A stretch of DNA of 64,000 bases. It comes from Calvatia gigantea (taxonomy: Eukaryota > Basidiomycota > Agaricomycetes > Agaricales > Lycoperdaceae). The stretch spans positions 1,860,001-1,924,000 of the forward strand of contig JACAAK010000003.1 of the NCBI GenBank assembly GCA_025093985.1. Direction: 5' to 3'. The translations under genes and the position numbers were made by a program. Below, piece by piece: positions 7,937 through 26,117 of this stretch (position 1 is its first letter; each line of letters begins with the position of its first letter). Below the pieces are notes generated by a model that was given only the letters and a program-made list of their open reading frames with translations, had not been told where the DNA came from and did not search any database.

Positions 7937-10693
7937 ATGGAGGAGAATAAACATAGCGTTTCTTCCTCTATGGAGCCCGTCGTTCTTTCTGCTGTCCTCC
8001 GTAACAGACAAGTACCTGACGTACCAGAGGATGTCGACTTTCTCATGGAACATCTCAACGACCCTAACTTCGACCTCAAGAAGTCCTACCCTCCGTCCAT
8101 GAGGTCTGTGACCACGGATATGGGGGGCAAGAAAATCTATGCCTATGATCAGTCCGACTATGACGCCGAGTCCCACTTTGAATCTGAACGGCCTTCATCT
8201 CGAGTCTCAACAACCATTGAGTTCGATGAGTAAGTTGTTACATATGTTTCTCATCATTCAGCATGCTCATTACTCTTCAGTGAGTCTCCCTATCCCGAAG
8301 TCCGCGCCGCAGTTTCCAGTGTGGATGATCCCTCGATGCCCGTGAACACGTTCAGAATGTAGGTTTTGAATAATGTCATGTAGCTCCGGCTTATTGGTCT
8401 TTCAGGTGGTTCCTTGGCCTTTTGGCTACGATCTTAGTCTCCGGATTGAATCAGATCTTTTCTTTACGTTGTATGTGTCATTAGTATAATCCCGTTTGGT
8501 CATAACCTAACAACCGCCCAGACCCCTCCGTCTTCATCACCGGCATCGTTGTCCAACTAGTGACTCTCCCTGCCGGAAAGCTCCTGGAGCGCATTCTTCC
8601 AACTACCCGCTTCAACACCTTCGGTTACTTATGGTCCTTCAATCCCGGCCCATTTACCATTAAGGAACACGTCTGCATTACCGTCATGGCTAATGTCGTC
8701 GTCGGTGGTGCTTACGCGACGGATGTTATCCTTACCCAGCGCGTCTTTTACGGACAGAAGATTACCTACGGGTATCAGATCATGATCGTCCTATCTTCGC
8801 AGCTGATCGGTTACTCGATGGCGGGCATCCTCCGTCAATTTGTCGTCTGGCCGTCAAGCATGATCTGGCCTGGTGCCTTGGTCAACTCGGCCCTTTTCAA
8901 CACCTTGCACAAAAGCTATGGCAACCGTGATAAGGGGCACATGAGCCGTGAACGTTTCTTCCTCTATGCTTTCTTGGCCAGTTTTGTCTGGTATTGGGTT
9001 CCTGGGTACCTATTCACTGCCCTCAGCATGTTCAGCTGGGTTTGCTGGATTGCTCCGAACAACGTTGTCGTTAACACTTTGTTCGGTGTTAACACGGGCT
9101 TGGGTATGAGCGTTTTGACCTTCGATTGGAGTATGATCTCTTTCATTGGGAGCCCCCTCGTTACACCGGTGGGTTTCTCCCATGTCAATGTGGCTCAAGT
9201 ACTTGCGCTAACATATCTCCATTAGTGGTGGTCTGAAATGAACACCGGTGTCGCGTTCATACTTTGCTTCTGGGTCATTGCTCCCGCTTGGTATTGTGCG
9301 TAGATTAATTGGTTCTAGGCATTACTTTGCGTCTAACTCTATCTCTCAGTCACCAATACTTTCAACACCGCCCACTTCCCCATCTCTTCCTTCCTCTCCT
9401 GGGACAACACCGGTGCTCCCTACAATCCCCGCGCTGTTGTTAACGAGAATGGTGTCTTCGATCCTGTTCTGTACTCGCAGTACTCTCCCATCTTCATGTC
9501 TGCCACTCTCGTCATGGCTTACGGCATTGCTTTCGCGTCTTTCCCCTCTGTCTTCGTGCACACTTTCCTTTGGTTCCGCAAGGACATCGTCAAGCGCTTC
9601 AGGACCACTCTCAAAGATGAACGCGACGTCCACTCTCGCCTCATGCAGGTTTATCCCGAAGTCCCGATGTGGTGGTATGCCGCTATCGGTGTCGTGACTT
9701 TCATTCTCATGTGTGTTGGGGTTGAAGTCTTCCCCACTCAACTCCCCGCCTGGGGTGCTATCGTCGCCTTCCTCCTCTCCGCCGTTCTCGCGATCCCCTT
9801 GGCTATGCTCATGGCTATCACCAACCAACAAGTTCCAACCCAAGTTATGCACGAACTCGTTGCCGGTTACATGCTTCCTGGTCGCCCAGTTGCCAACATC
9901 CTCTTCAAGACTATTGCTTTCATTGGTACCCATCAAGCAGTTAGCTTTGCTGGTGACCTCAAGCTCGGCCATTACATGAAAATACCTCCCCGCATCATGT
10001 TCTCTGTCCAAGTCGTCGCGTCTGCCGTGAGCTGCTTCGTCGTCACGCTTGTGCAAGACTGGATGCTCGCAAATATTGAGGATATCTGTACCCCCCGCCA
10101 AAAGGACGGCTTCCGCTGCCCCGGTACCAACGTTTTCGCCACTGCGTCTCTTATTTGGGGTGGTATCGGCCCTCGGAGGATGTTTGGTCCGGGTGCGCCT
10201 TACAACGCCCTTCTCTGGTTCTTCCTCATCGGCGCCCTCCTTCCCATCCCATTTTACCTCCTCGCGCGTCGCTTCCCTCTTTCGTTCTGGCGATATGTTA
10301 ACATCCCCATCTTCTTCGCTGGCCTTGGTGCTATGCCACCGGCGTCTGGAATCAACTACATCTCATGGGCACTTTTGGGCTTCACATTCAACTATGTGAT
10401 TAGGAAGTACCACTTCAGGTGGTGGATGAGGTACAACTATATCTTGTCTGCTGCGTTGGATGCTGGTGTCGCAATTGCCGTCGTGGTGATTTTCTTCGTA
10501 TTGCAGTACCCGAAGGGCGGATTTGAGCTGAACTGGTGGGGTAACCTGTGAGTCTTACTACAGCATCGAGTTTCTGATTTTGAGACTGACTATTTCGGTG
10601 AAAAGGGTGTGGCAAAATACCGCCGATGCCAATGGAATTCCTTTGCGGCCCATCCCCGAAGGCGAGACTGTCGGTCCCAGCTCATGGTCATAA
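7937..10693 (+). CDS. OPT-family oligopeptide transporter
   Basis: Proton-coupled importer of small peptides, or related metal-peptide or glutathione conjugates, in the plasma membrane. It begins MEENKHSVSS with a hydrophilic cytosolic tail of about 100 residues containing V-P-D-V-P-E-D, then D-D-P-S-M-P-V-N-T-F-R-M leading into the first membrane helix. Family marks include S-F-N-P-G-P-F-T-I-K-E-H, the NPG motif; W-S-M-I-S-F-I-G-S-P-L; and K-I-P-P-R in the second half. About 12-16 hydrophobic helices are visible. At least six exons with short introns; the last adds VWQNTADANGIPLRPIPEGE and ends S-S-W-S. Length is about 830 residues, normal for the family. No frame break seen. Substrate specificity is not evident. 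Confidence 0.95.
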
Positions 10694-18651: not shown

Positions 18652-20733
18652 ATGTCCCTCGCCATCGAATATTCATCCGACGATGACCAAATTGCTGAAT
18701 CCGTTGCAAAAGATGCTTTTGGTGTTTCCTTTTTGTCGAGCAACAAAAGATTCCGTGTCCAGGAATCGACTGAGCCCAGTTCCATAGCATCAGATGCTGC
18801 ACCGCACGTTCTGGCAGAGGTTCGCGAATATCCTTGCCCAAAGATCTTTTCCATACTAACAGAAACATATAGGATCCTTTGAAGATGACATCTCTTGTAA
18901 CTAGACCAACAGATACGCAAATGAATGTGAACATTCCCTATCAAGACATGATACTCCCACTTCAAGGGCCAGAAAACCCGTTCGGCGACCGGAGTCGTTT
19001 TCTTAATCAGAATGCACTTGCCGGTCACGTAGAAGAACAGTCGATGTCCGAACATGCTTTTCGTACCCAACACCTTACCCATTCCATACTTGGCTACTCG
19101 ACAAATCCTTCCGTTGACCCCAACGCTCCGGCTATTATAGGGTCGATTGAAGAGGCCAAGTCCAACGGCTTCCAGACCATAGACTCTCTAAGAGCACCAA
19201 AAAGTGAGCGGAAAAAGTTGAAGCGAAAGAGACAGAATAAGGGGGATCTCGAAGTCGTTGACGGAGAAGGTGCCTACGTTGGACCTTGGGCGTCTTGGCA
19301 GGGTGAGGACAATCAAGTAGATTTCCTTGCCGGTGTTACCGCCGGTGATGAATCGGAAGAGGAGGAAGAAGAAGAGGAACCCACCGGATACACGATTAAA
19401 AAGGCCAAACCCAAGAGGGGTGCTGTTGGACAAGAGAGTTCAATCTTCCATGGCACATCTTTGACCGACTACCAAGGTAGAACGTACATGTCCCCCCCAA
19501 CTGCGGAGGCACCGCAATTGTTACAAGAACCCGGTTCACAAGATTGTTTTATCCCCAAAGTTTGCATTCATACATGGACCGGTCATACACAAGGTGTCTC
19601 CGTTATTCGAACGTTCCCAGAGACCGGCCATTTGTTCATCAGTGGCTCCATGGATACCAAGATAAAAGTACGCGTGGACCATTTCGCGGTGTCTGTATGA
19701 TATTGATTATATTTTAGCTTTGGGATATTTACACGCATGGAAATTGCCTACGGACATTCCATGGCCATGTCAAAGCTGTCAAAGATATTTGCTTCTCGAA
19801 CGATGGCCGGCAGTTCCTTTCTTGCGGTTACGACCGCCAGATGAAATTGTGGGATACTGAAACTGGGCAGTGTTTAAAGCGTTTTAGCAATGGAAAGATC
19901 CCCTATGTCGTACGCTTCCATCCTGACGAAGATAAGCAAAATATTTTCCTGGCTGGAATGTCAGACAAGAAAATCATACAAGTATGTCCTTCGCAGGATA
20001 ACCGAAGTTGTCACTCACAAAATGATATGGCAGTATGACATGAACTCGGGCGAGATCACACAAGAGTACGATCAACATCTTGGACCGGTGAACACAATCA
20101 CCTTCGTGGACGAAAACCGGCGATTCGTGACTACCTCAGACGACAAGACAATCCGTGCCTGGGACTTCGATATACCCGTGGTCATCAAGTATATTGCAGA
20201 ACCGCACATGCACTCAATGCCTTCTGTGACACTCCATCCTTCAAGTATGTCGTTTGACTTTTCTGATTAACCTTGTTAATGTCTAACTTTTTTTTTGTCT
20301 TCAATAGAGAAGTACTTCGCTGCTCAATCGCTCGATAACCAGATCCTCGTCTATAGTACAGATAACTTCCGCCAGAACCGAAAGAAGCGATTTGCGGGAC
20401 ATTCCGTCGCTGGGTATGCGTGCCAGGTTGGATTTTCTCCCGACGGTAAATGGATAAGTAGCGGTGATGGTGAGGGAAATGTCATCTTCTGGGATTGGAA
20501 GACCGGGCGTATCAAGTCCCGGCTAAAAGCACACTCCAAGGTTGTAATCGCTCACGAATGGTTGCCGCATGAGACAGTAAGTCCATCCAACCGAGGATGC
20601 TGATCGGATTGCTCATCTTTTTACCAGTCAAAAGTCATTACCGCCTCATGGGATGGCCTTATCAAGTTATGGGTACGTCTTGTCTTCGCTTTGGCTCCCT
20701 TGTCATGCTAATGGTAACTACTATTAGGATTAA
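18652..20733 (+). CDS. PRP17: Pre-mRNA-processing factor 17 (WD40 protein, CDC40)
   Basis: Second-step splicing factor of the catalytic spliceosome. Starts [17 protein letters not shown]. Exon 2 holds conserved Prp17 N-terminal segments: [17 protein letters not shown] and G-P-W-A-S-W, with an acidic run of glutamates before [10 protein letters not shown]. The WD40 propeller begins at [20 protein letters not shown] and continues with [25 protein letters not shown] and [16 protein letters not shown]. The last exon adds only D and a stop after [10 protein letters not shown]. At least eight exons, about 580 residues. Full length and nuclear. It lies just upstream of the repeat-peptide gene on the same strand. 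Confidence 0.95.
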
Positions 20734-22031
20734 TGGTTTTCTCCTGTTCGTAATAATACTGGATAGGATACATGACATCATCCGGCCTTGCATTTAAAAA
20801 AATGAGCAGTCAAGACACCGCGGAGGATCGTAAATCTTGTTCGTCGGAGATAGCAGAGGATAGCAGCTGCAACATGTTCATGTCAGTTGCCTCTTCGAGC
20901 ATAACCCAGCCACCGATGATGTGAAAAAGAACTCATCAGAATATTTCTGGTCAACAACGCTAGCTAAATCTGTTGCCGATGTTTTTTTTGTGCATCCTCC
21001 CACATCATTCAATCTTGAACCGTTCCTGTTTATAATTACATCGTCGAAGGGAACTGATGGGCTTGTTATGACTGACCCACTGATCTCTGAGGGAAATTTC
21101 ACCCAAAATGGTACGTTTGCGAATGAATTTCCACTCCTCTCGCGGCTTATGGCGTTCCACAAGTGCTTCTTATCTTCAATATAACCGTCAACAATCTATA
21201 TGAAGGTAAAAAGTTTGCGCAGCTCATCAGGCCCATTTGATTTCACAGGAAAAAAAGTACGACCCCGGACATTGGACGAAAAGGCCTCTTTTTACCGTAT
21301 ATCCTTATTCCGCAAGAGAAAACAGAAATATCACTGCAGTACGAGCTGGATATGAAGTCAGCTGGACCTACGCGATGGGCACTTTACATCTGACCTGGCA
21401 GGACTTCTTACCCGAACATCACGCCAACCTTCAGGTTATAAGTATTGAAACATACGCGAACAGTGCGTGATGACAGGAGACATTCGGCTGGAGCATGGTT
21501 ACGGGCCTGCAGAACATGATGTGTGATTTCCGGGTCGTAAGGCACCACTGACTGGTAAGGTAAAGAAGTACCAAATTGGTCAGGTACGTCCACCACGTGA
21601 AATACATTGCTCATCCCACGATTCCACAGATGGTGATAGCAACATCCCAACAGATCAAGTAGATGGTTTGACGATGGTACGGTCAAACCTGCGCTGCTGT
21701 GTGTTGACGCCCCCACACCCTGCCAGATTAAACATCGGAAACAGAGTGGAGAACTGAATTACAGGTACCAGGGCTAGACATGGAATTCCATGATGCCGAC
21801 CAGCAGGTGAATTAGATTCCACGTGAACCTAGGTGACATGTACTCTGGATACCACATGCGGAAAAGCGGAAGGACAAAATTTCCCCGAATCCCAATCCTT
21901 GGTTTGGGGTTTGCACCCGTCTTGCCGGATCTGGGGGAAGGCATAAAAACAAGCCGGAGGATAGGTCCTGTTGCCCAACCCCAGTCAATCCGCCCCTTTA
22001 TTTTATTTTTTGCACACTGTTCGCCTCAAGC
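20734..22031. other. Intergenic region upstream of the repeat-peptide gene
   Basis: About 1.3 kb with no gene recognised. It must contain the PRP17 3' end and the promoter of the repeat-peptide gene. A few open frames of 65-100 codons occur but show no domain. Confidence 0.5.
21943..21948 (+). promoter_or_regulatory. TATA-like box of repeat-peptide gene
   Basis: ATAAAA in GCATAAAAAC lies 84-89 bp before the ATG at 22032, a fitting distance for a strongly regulated fungal gene. Most housekeeping genes in this window show no such box. Confidence 0.5.
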
Positions 22032-22603
22032 ATGCGACTTGCCATTCTCCTGTCTCTGGCCCTGGCTACTTTTGCCTCAGCACTTCCGGTATGTCGGGAA
22101 TTTATAACCCAGCTGTAGTACTTATTCACCTCTCAAGGCCGCTGAGCCCGTTGCTGCTGTTGCTGGTAACAGCGACTGGCGACGTGGAAACTCTGACTGG
22201 CGACGCGGAAACTCTGATTGGCGACGCGGAAACTCCGACTGGCGCAGGGGTAACAGTGATTGGAAACGTACGGAAATCGACGAGCGCGGAAATAGTGATT
22301 GGAAACGGTCAGACACCCAAGCTCGTGGCAACTCTGATTGGAGACGATCGGTTGAGGCTCGAGGGAATTCAGATTGGAGAAGAGACACAGCTTCGCCAGA
22401 ACTTGCGCCGCTAGATAGTCGCGGAAACTCTGACTGGAGAAGAGATGAAGTTGATATCCGCGGCGCTGGCAATTCGGACTGGAAACGCATGGCTGAGGAG
22501 GAAGCGCGTGGAAACTCGGATTGGAGAAGGCAGGGATCTGAACAGGTTCGTTTCGCCTGGTTGCTGTTCACCTTGATAACTTCTGACTCTGTTGCAGGCA
22601 TGA
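22032..22603 (+). CDS. Secreted Kex2-processed repeat peptide precursor (eleven GNSDW units)
   Basis: Predicted 156-residue precursor. Exon 1 (22032-22088) encodes a signal peptide, MRLAILLSLALATFASA, with likely cleavage after residue 17. Exon 2 (22138-22545) encodes a short Ala/Pro leader and eleven copies of GNSDW, each followed by RR (eight) or KR (three). Copies 1-5 are back to back; copies 6-11 have acidic spacers of 5-13 residues, all but one ending in a single Arg. A 52-nt intron (22546-22597) then joins G-S-E-Q to A and the stop. If that intron is retained, an open frame runs to about 22713. This layout matches fungal KEP precursors such as alpha-factor, Ustilago Rep1 and dikaritin precursors: cut by Kex2 in the Golgi, trimmed, secreted. 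The core peptide matches none I know; function unknown. Neighbours are PRP17 and MCM3, with no tailoring gene beside it. Confidence 0.88.
22165..22530 (+). repeat. In-frame GNSDW-(R/K)R coding repeat array
   Basis: Eleven units encode the identical pentapeptide GNSDW plus a dibasic pair, at residues 29-33, 36-40, 43-47, 50-54, 57-61, 70-74, 83-87, 95-99, 115-119, 130-134 and 144-148. The DNA has diverged: all four Gly codons, both Asn, both Asp and all six Ser codons are used. The peptide is therefore kept constant while the DNA drifts, which argues for selection on the product rather than recent slippage. The first five units are 21 bp tandem repeats; the others are spaced. Confidence 0.95.
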
Positions 22604-23387
22604 GTTATCCTTTGAATTGCTGCTTCCCCTGCCCCGTTCAGTATCATGACATGAACCCTTTCCCAAAATTCTTGCGGTTTATTTATTGTCTGTTCGGTTT
22701 TGTCCTCACTTGAGTACATAGTGACCGTTTTAAGTTATAAACCCCGCCCTTAACAAAGTCGTTGGAGGTTTTGTGGCGAGCTCACATCGTCATTAAGCGA
22801 TTATTCCCTTTTATCGGCCAGTCTCCGCGTCGTTATCAGAAATATGGGAACCCTGTCGGAACAAAGATAAAGAAGCTGAGAGAAGAGTCAAACCAGCGGT
22901 TAAAAAACAAGGGATGACCTACACATTTACCCTAAAACCCGGGTGTTGGGGAAGAGAAAGTGGTCTCACGCCCGTAAGTAAATAGAAGCGGACTCACGAT
23001 CTATAATGGATAGTTCTCAGGACCATTATTTATAGACGATGTGGGGATCGTCCGTGCTACTTATGTAACAGTAAAAACAGGAGACCCGAGTGGGAACTCC
23101 CAGGCAACGTCAACACTTGCTCCGGGCGGCCAGTGGAACGAAATGACAACTGCGCAGAATTCCATTCTCAAAATGTTCTCAAAATGGAAGCTCGTTATGT
23201 GCCCTGACCGGCGACTGCTGATAGTCTGCTAATGCACAAGTATGATTGACTACTTATTTGGCTGTAATGATAGTTGTTGACGCGTTAATGAGGACGCGGT
23301 CAACGTGACCTGATTGATCCCTCTCCTCGCCTTCTCGTCTTCTCCTCGTCTCTGGCTGGCTTTCCAGCCCGTTTCCCGCCTCTTATC
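22604..23387. other. Intergenic region between repeat-peptide gene and MCM3
   Basis: No gene is supported. It includes the 3' flank of the peptide gene and the MCM3 promoter, which becomes pyrimidine-rich (CCTCTCCTCGCCTTCTCGTC) before the MCM3 ATG. Confidence 0.55.

Positions 23388-26117
<2,730 letters not shown>

Follow-up and report, generated by a model that had tools for sequence, protein, structure and literature searches.

The window analysed here, a 64,000-nucleotide stretch of the Calvatia gigantea genome (46 Mb in 77 contigs), carries a small gene on the + strand whose predicted product contains eleven copies of the pentapeptide GNSDW. The gene lies between PRP17 (CDC40) and MCM3, as the first-pass annotation had placed it; both neighbours are identified by structure matches and by their domains, WD40 matches in 19878-20267 for PRP17 and, spread across four open frames, MCM_N, MCM_OB, MCM and MCM_lid domains for MCM3. 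The bounds given for PRP17 are those of an open frame at the 5′ side (18873 is not the start of the gene) and of a 3′ end placed by eye near 20735. The features are as follows.

18873-20735, + strand: exons of the upstream neighbour PRP17 (CDC40), the best solved-structure matches being pre-mRNA-processing factor 17 (E = 1.5e-41)
22032-22088, + strand: predicted exon 1 of the GNSDW precursor gene, encoding the signal peptide MRLAILLSLALATFASA and residues LP (from translation)
22089-22137, + strand: predicted intron 1, 49 nt, GTATGT...CAAG
22138-22545, + strand: predicted exon 2, encoding the leader AAEPVAAVA, eleven GNSDW-(R/K)R units and six spacers
22165-22269, + strand: units 1-5, direct tandem GNSDW(RR/KR) without spacers (from unit starts and Tandem Repeats Finder)
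22270-22530, + strand: the six later GNSDW(RR/KR) units, each preceded by a spacer (from translation; pattern kept in the relative P0001)
22546-22597, + strand: predicted intron 2, 52 nt, GTTCGT...GCAG
22598-22603, + strand: predicted exon 3, the codon of the last residue (Ala) and TGA
23388-25929 (end approximate), + strand: exons of the downstream neighbour MCM3, the best solved-structure matches being MCM3 (E = 1.8e-101)

Exons of an OPT-family oligopeptide transporter are also present in the window (8506-10548, + strand), about 11.5 kb upstream of the GNSDW precursor. OPT-family transporters take up short peptides; the proximity of the two genes is probably due to chance.

The three predicted exons (22032-22603, stop codon TGA at 22601-22603) join into a protein of 156 residues, the length claimed at first pass for a gene with two introns. 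Both predicted introns have GT/AG ends and are in phase 0. Left unspliced, intron 1 stops translation after 28 residues. For intron 2 we tried the donors 22546 and 22550 against a single acceptor, 22597, yielding ends at 156 and 194 residues, respectively. The gene model is supported by two relatives, because they read on through extra residues at the intron positions: the open frame of P0002 does so at the position of intron 1, after ASALP, and P0003 at that of intron 2 (EQ-VRL...AG-M). Judged from sequence, the precursor gene is very probably real, with a predicted transcript and predicted splicing.

The signal peptide was recognized by inspection, with a hydropathy maximum of 2.52 over 12 residues and several candidate sites, one of A-x-A type following residue 17, and the N terminus of P0002 closely resembles that of the GNSDW precursor. 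A short Ala/Pro-rich leader separates the signal peptide from the repeats. All eleven units are identical (starts at 22165, 22186, 22207, 22228, 22249, 22288, 22327, 22363, 22423, 22468 and 22510), and every one of them is closed by a dibasic pair, RR in eight cases and KR in three. The first-pass description of a signal peptide, a short leader and dibasic-closed repeats is thereby borne out, both at the signal peptide and at the Kex2 sites. Units 1-5 are picked up by Tandem Repeats Finder as arrays of period 21 and 42. The six spacers that precede the later units are TEIDER, SDTQAR, SVEAR, DTASPELAPLDSR, DEVDIRGA and MAEEEAR, five of them ending in a single Arg and one in Arg-Gly-Ala. The precursor terminates in GSEQA and has no Cys or Tyr after residue 28. 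There is no CaaX box at its C terminus, making it unlike the farnesylated CaaX pheromones of basidiomycetes, as had been noted at first pass. The pentapeptide itself has a calculated MH+ of 578.22. Searching six proteins against Pfam (E up to 1) returned no family for any of the six; a single NCBIfam match, far below its cut-off, was taken as chance.

Comparison of the eleven copies

To set the repeat against chance, we took the commonest five-residue word in each stop-free stretch of 60 codons or more in six frames, setting aside words with fewer than four different residues. The top count is 11 here, 2 in the window minus the gene, and 1 or 2 in each of 20 Markov-resampled windows.

At the DNA level the eleven copies exist in ten distinct versions, at the protein level in one. 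Pairwise differences between copies amount to 24, 24 and 130 at codon positions 1, 2 and 3, and all of those at the first two positions reflect the AGY/TCN serine switch. Because the DNA of the copies differs only synonymously, the pentapeptide looks constrained, its coding DNA apparently drifting while the peptide stays. The mean amino-acid identity among copies is 0.93 in the frame of the gene and no higher than 0.64 in any other frame; the antisense frame of 22125-22604 is also open, and its repeats vary. A neutral star model, in which the copies are independent descendants of one consensus and gene conversion is ignored, gives a log10 P of about -21.7, a crude value that indicates direction alone.

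The comparison with P0001 separates core from spacer. No difference occurs at 50 core sites (ten paired units, counted by eye), versus 12 differences at 40 sites of the five spacers that align without gaps (Fisher P = 2e-5, a nominal value, as repeat copies are not independent sites); the sixth spacer, which has a length change, was omitted. Each of the six spacers in P0001 retains its closing Arg, or the Arg-Gly-Ala where the window protein has it.

A known precursor class and its GxxDW relatives

By its sequence the GNSDW precursor is a Kex2-processed repeat protein (KEP), an already described class of which GNSDW would be a new member: it combines a secretion signal (by inspection) with identical repeats (11 of 11) and a Kex2 site after each (11 of 11). 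KEPs of basidiomycetes, alpha-factor-like ones included, have been described (PMC6339444, PMC7329392, PMC9769878), and a conserved repeated XSDW motif was reported in Basidiomycota, in an ectomycorrhizal fungus and in saprotrophs, in 2019 (Le Marquer et al., PMC6339444). The eleven GNSDW copies, a repeated motif ending in SDW, fit XSDW, and the two share a signal peptide, repeats and intervening Kex2 sites, in a comparison made by motif alone and not by sequence list. The first-pass proposal of a different class of secreted peptide therefore holds with respect to CaaX mating pheromones but not with respect to KEPs, whose class and XSDW motif were already published. Similarly, its statement that no fungal peptide with this core had been described stands for the exact string GNSDW, for which we found no paper (survey figures and supplementary tables, outside the scope of the search, may list it), and has to yield where the 2019 motif is concerned. 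Searches with GSPDW, GDPDW, GQTDW, NSDWRR and SPDWRR likewise gave no paper apparently on fungal peptides, and KEP terms are absent from the portions of PMC9233826 covered here.

Peptides from such precursors have been seen directly. Mass spectrometry of fruiting bodies identified the W-ended KEP products SGTGEASAADW in shiitake (Lentinula edodes) and SGVAADW plus longer forms in Pleurotus (Vogt et al. 2022, PMC9769878). These are short linear -DW peptides from a repeat precursor, as proposed for GNSDW, but their cores span 7 to 11 residues as opposed to five. The Pleurotus precursors also carry Ste13 dipeptides, which the GNSDW gene lacks save for one Gly-Ala and the Ala/Pro-rich leader. The most widespread KEP type, G-1/P-2 of Umemura, covers 49 genera and is described as high in tyrosine (PMC7329392); Pleurotus, Hypsizygus, Pluteus and Gymnopilus are among its genera, and we find -DW precursors there too. 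Since that type is Tyr-rich and the GNSDW protein is free of Tyr after residue 28, a comparison by description, GNSDW probably represents another type.

The first protein search (3225 candidates scored) gave six matches, including P0001 (78% identity over 90%), P0002 (59% over 87%), P0003 (73% over 33%) and a match in Pholiota molesta (E 0.012); the three closest relatives look like unspliced predictions. Two alignment searches followed, each scoring only the candidates that shared most words (7997 and 7995), with E-values that are not independent for proteins in the query alignment and with scores inflated by repeats. The first added Crassisporium funariophilum, Gymnopilus dilepis and Pluteus cervinus, and the second added Rhizodiscina lignyota, Cytidiella melzeri, Volvariella volvacea, Pleurotus ostreatus, Tricholomella constricta, Hypsizygus marmoreus, Pleurotus djamor and, at E 0.49, Vararia minispora. 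Species are named for 12 of the 23 relatives among the matches listed. In Pluteus cervinus the precursor holds four units that are exactly GNSDW, so that the core is identical in the window protein, P0001 and P. cervinus; a search for such repeats in other Agaricomycetes was among the checks suggested at first pass. One relative, P0010, comes from an ascomycete, the dothideomycete Rhizodiscina lignyota; this precursor, encoded on a contig of 1.3 Mb, has seven GQTDW units, and its likeness to the mushroom family could be due to transfer or to convergence.

Within the C. gigantea genome, a whole-protein search (E up to 10, best candidates scored) returned this locus only, as did P0012 used as query (again with the best candidates scored). 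With P0019 as query, a match at C6:2014184 (E 0.07) proved to be proline-rich and not a KEP; a second weak match lies at C34:2319040 (E 3.0). A degenerate DNA pattern for the unit occurs at 146 places and its reversed form at 23, mostly through the word GGGAACAGGGATTGG, and among the matches listed the GNSDW locus is the only one at which copies crowd into a few hundred bases. This 15-base word is scattered over dozens of genome places (for example, L001-L003) and is probably part of a dispersed repeat.

We counted units in 20 precursors, the window protein and 19 of the 23 listed relatives. P0005 (E 0.033), P0006 (E 1.4), P0022 and P0023 (E 5.7 and 9.8) were left out; we retained P0020 (E 0.21) and P0021 (E 0.49) for their -DW-(K/R)R units, so the counts lean slightly towards the motif. 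Of the 105 DW units in this set, 92 have a pair of basic residues after them, 7 form the C terminus and 6 stand in other contexts. GxxDW units number 71 and are distributed over 15 of the 20 precursors. They are preceded by two basic residues (29), a single basic residue (25), xP (5), xA (5) or other residues (7), giving a processing-like residue (basic, xP or xA) before 64 of 71.

Both ends of the unit can be judged from these relatives. Because seven of the 20 precursors end in DW, tryptophan is suggested to be a natural free C terminus; the last unit is GxxDW in two of the seven and another sequence in five, and P0011 and P0020, both among the seven, are near-copies on short contigs and not independent. 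In Pleurotus djamor, EP, SP or TP stands between the Kex2 site and GSPDW, a Ste13 pattern, and in Pleurotus ostreatus RR or KR directly precedes GSPDW; the two species would thus have apparent separate routes to one N terminus of the same pentapeptide. We propose GxxDW as the mature peptide because of the -DW ends and the xP before GSPDW in P. djamor. There are exceptions to a clean GxxDW unit, with a longer GSGSADW in Volvariella and no GxxDW in Tricholomella and Vararia. The mature unit proposed here, the constraint on the core and the relatives, one ascomycete included, are what this analysis adds to the known class.

Proposed processing and function

The repeat architecture, the constraint on the core, the relatives with the same core and the enzyme-family matches are read from sequence; splicing, cleavage, secretion, mature ends and a signalling role we infer. 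The signal peptide would route the precursor into the secretory pathway, where a Golgi kexin would cleave after every RR or KR. For the six spaced copies, the kexin would also cleave behind the spacer's closing single Arg, and in one of them Gly-Ala would then be trimmed off as a dipeptide. A Kex1-type carboxypeptidase would then strip the C-terminal basic residues, leaving up to eleven copies of linear H-GNSDW-OH outside the cell. Candidate enzymes for the Kex2, Kex1 and Ste13 steps appear to exist, because the genome has a kexin-type gene on contig C12 (P-domain at 1,347,814, S8 domain at 1,348,486), 47 exon matches to the S10 carboxypeptidase family and a DPP-IV-type gene match on C45. Cutting after a single Arg has a parallel in C. 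cinerea KEPs expressed in Pichia, which gave products that appear to be cut there (PMC9769878).

We hold it likely, with good confidence, that the gene encodes a KEP yielding the linear secreted pentapeptide GNSDW, which would belong to a family of GxxDW peptides distributed mostly among Agaricomycetes, with signalling as its likely role. The role taken by itself is put at about even chances; GNSDW would most likely be a small extracellular signal, acting between hyphae or towards other organisms through a putative receptor. Several points weigh against this reading. Five residues are very few for a specific ligand, 7 of 71 GxxDW units have no processing-like residue before them, 5 of 20 precursors hold no GxxDW, and 5 of 7 DW ends are not GxxDW. 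Knockouts of six kep genes in C. cinerea gave no phenotype, and the KEP peptides tested did not inhibit bacteria (PMC9769878); none of the product sequences in the portions of that paper covered here is GxxDW.

The same processing could instead serve another target, the peptide being an effector or a competitor-directed compound for bacteria, animals or plants. The lack of a phenotype in the C. cinerea kep knockouts, seen in axenic culture, led their authors to suggest a role towards the biotic environment (PMC9769878). P0001 and Pluteus cervinus share the identical core, a strong conservation unlike what we would expect of typical fast-changing effectors, and we regard this target as a possible but minority explanation.

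It is improbable that many copies of the peptide assemble on the hyphal wall as a surface or matrix component in the manner of Rep1. Rep1 of Ustilago maydis is cut by Kex2 into peptides that form amyloid-like fibrils and attach to hyphae (PMC9769878, PMC6339444), and the high copy number of GNSDW would suit bulk production; the Rep1 peptides, however, are 37 residues long (PMC6339444), and a polar pentapeptide would be an unlikely fibril former.

We give an equally low probability to a dikaritin-like RiPP, whose cores would be modified and cyclised, for example through tryptophan, by UstYa-type enzymes from another locus. Dikaritin precursors (ustiloxin type) share the architecture of secreted repeats with dibasic sites (PMC9769878), and the genome does contain UstYa matches, at C23:782-788 kb, C7:335-337 kb and C23:4.38-4.39 Mb, with repeats near one of them. 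Yet all seven UstYa (DUF3328) matches fall outside the window, the closest one on its contig being about 1.1 Mb away, and GNSDW has neither a Tyr in its core nor any Tyr or Cys in the precursor beyond residue 28; the RiPP-core option raised at first pass thus finds no support here. The survey of PMC7329392 places a DUF3328 gene close to only 103 of its 1680 basidiomycete KEPs. A crude single-open-frame scan of seven stretches around the three UstYa places (L054-L060, 68 kb), which would miss intron-split precursors, detected no KEP-like repeats. Direct repeats occur in three of six stretches examined and, when translated, contain no units parted by dibasic sites. In one of these regions, L059:9518-9709 (C23 near 4.3915 Mb), a 33-base unit is repeated in tandem some 1.8 kb away from a UstYa match; read in one frame, it gives an 11-residue NNGTDTSDVNA-like repeat with no dibasic sites between units.

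A function as an alpha-pheromone, with GNSDW serving mate recognition, is very improbable. The precursor architecture and the C-terminal W recall ascomycete alpha-factors, and such KEPs have been discussed for Basidiomycota (PMC6339444). Precursors of the MF-alpha type have the secreted repeats and the Kex2/Kex1 logic in common with GNSDW but differ by a regular Ste13 signature; here Ala precedes the core only in units 1 (leader ...AVA) and 10 (R-GA), Pro precedes it in none, and the precursor has no Pfam match. STE2 gave no match in the genome, but gave none in any of 14 control genomes either, and STE2-class receptors are reported in Ascomycota only (survey, PMC12842992). The same tool found 16 STE3 exon matches, 14 on C74 and 2 on C1. 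The 14 on C74 form a cluster (C74:1034092-1083985), probably the P/R mating locus, and four Homeobox_KN matches in both orientations at C23:3645427-3650233 probably mark the HD locus; one more homeobox match lies on C67. At C23:1.88 Mb, the GNSDW gene is near none of the UstYa, STE3 or homeobox matches, about 1.76 Mb from the C23 homeobox cluster and on another contig than the STE3 cluster. The first-pass label 'alpha-factor-like' is therefore apt for the architecture, and fails on the regular Ste13 signature and on closeness to candidate mating loci.

That the locus is no gene, but a tandem-repeat accident carrying an open frame, is scarcely credible: the gene is known from sequence alone and the antisense frame is open too, but the synonymous pattern, the signal peptide, the homologues sharing the core and the two that read through extra residues at the intron sites all speak against it.

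Returning to a secreted GNSDW pentapeptide, we tentatively suggest a wider, rather doubtful extension. GxxDW peptides (GNSDW, GSPDW, GDPDW and others) may form a conserved pentapeptide hormone family of Agaricales and Polyporales, reached by two processing routes (Kex2, or Kex2 plus Ste13) to the same N terminus, recognized by an orphan receptor and present in at least one ascomycete (GQTDW) by transfer or convergence.

Many mushroom KEPs have no assigned purpose, and a gene detected once in its genome, with an invariant five-residue product and relatives in other mushrooms, offers a clean test case. GNSDW is easily synthesised, its mass is predictable and both of its ends are suggested by the comparative data. 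Activity on the producer would speak for a mushroom peptide-signalling system in addition to the mating pheromones, and the search for a receptor would become possible.
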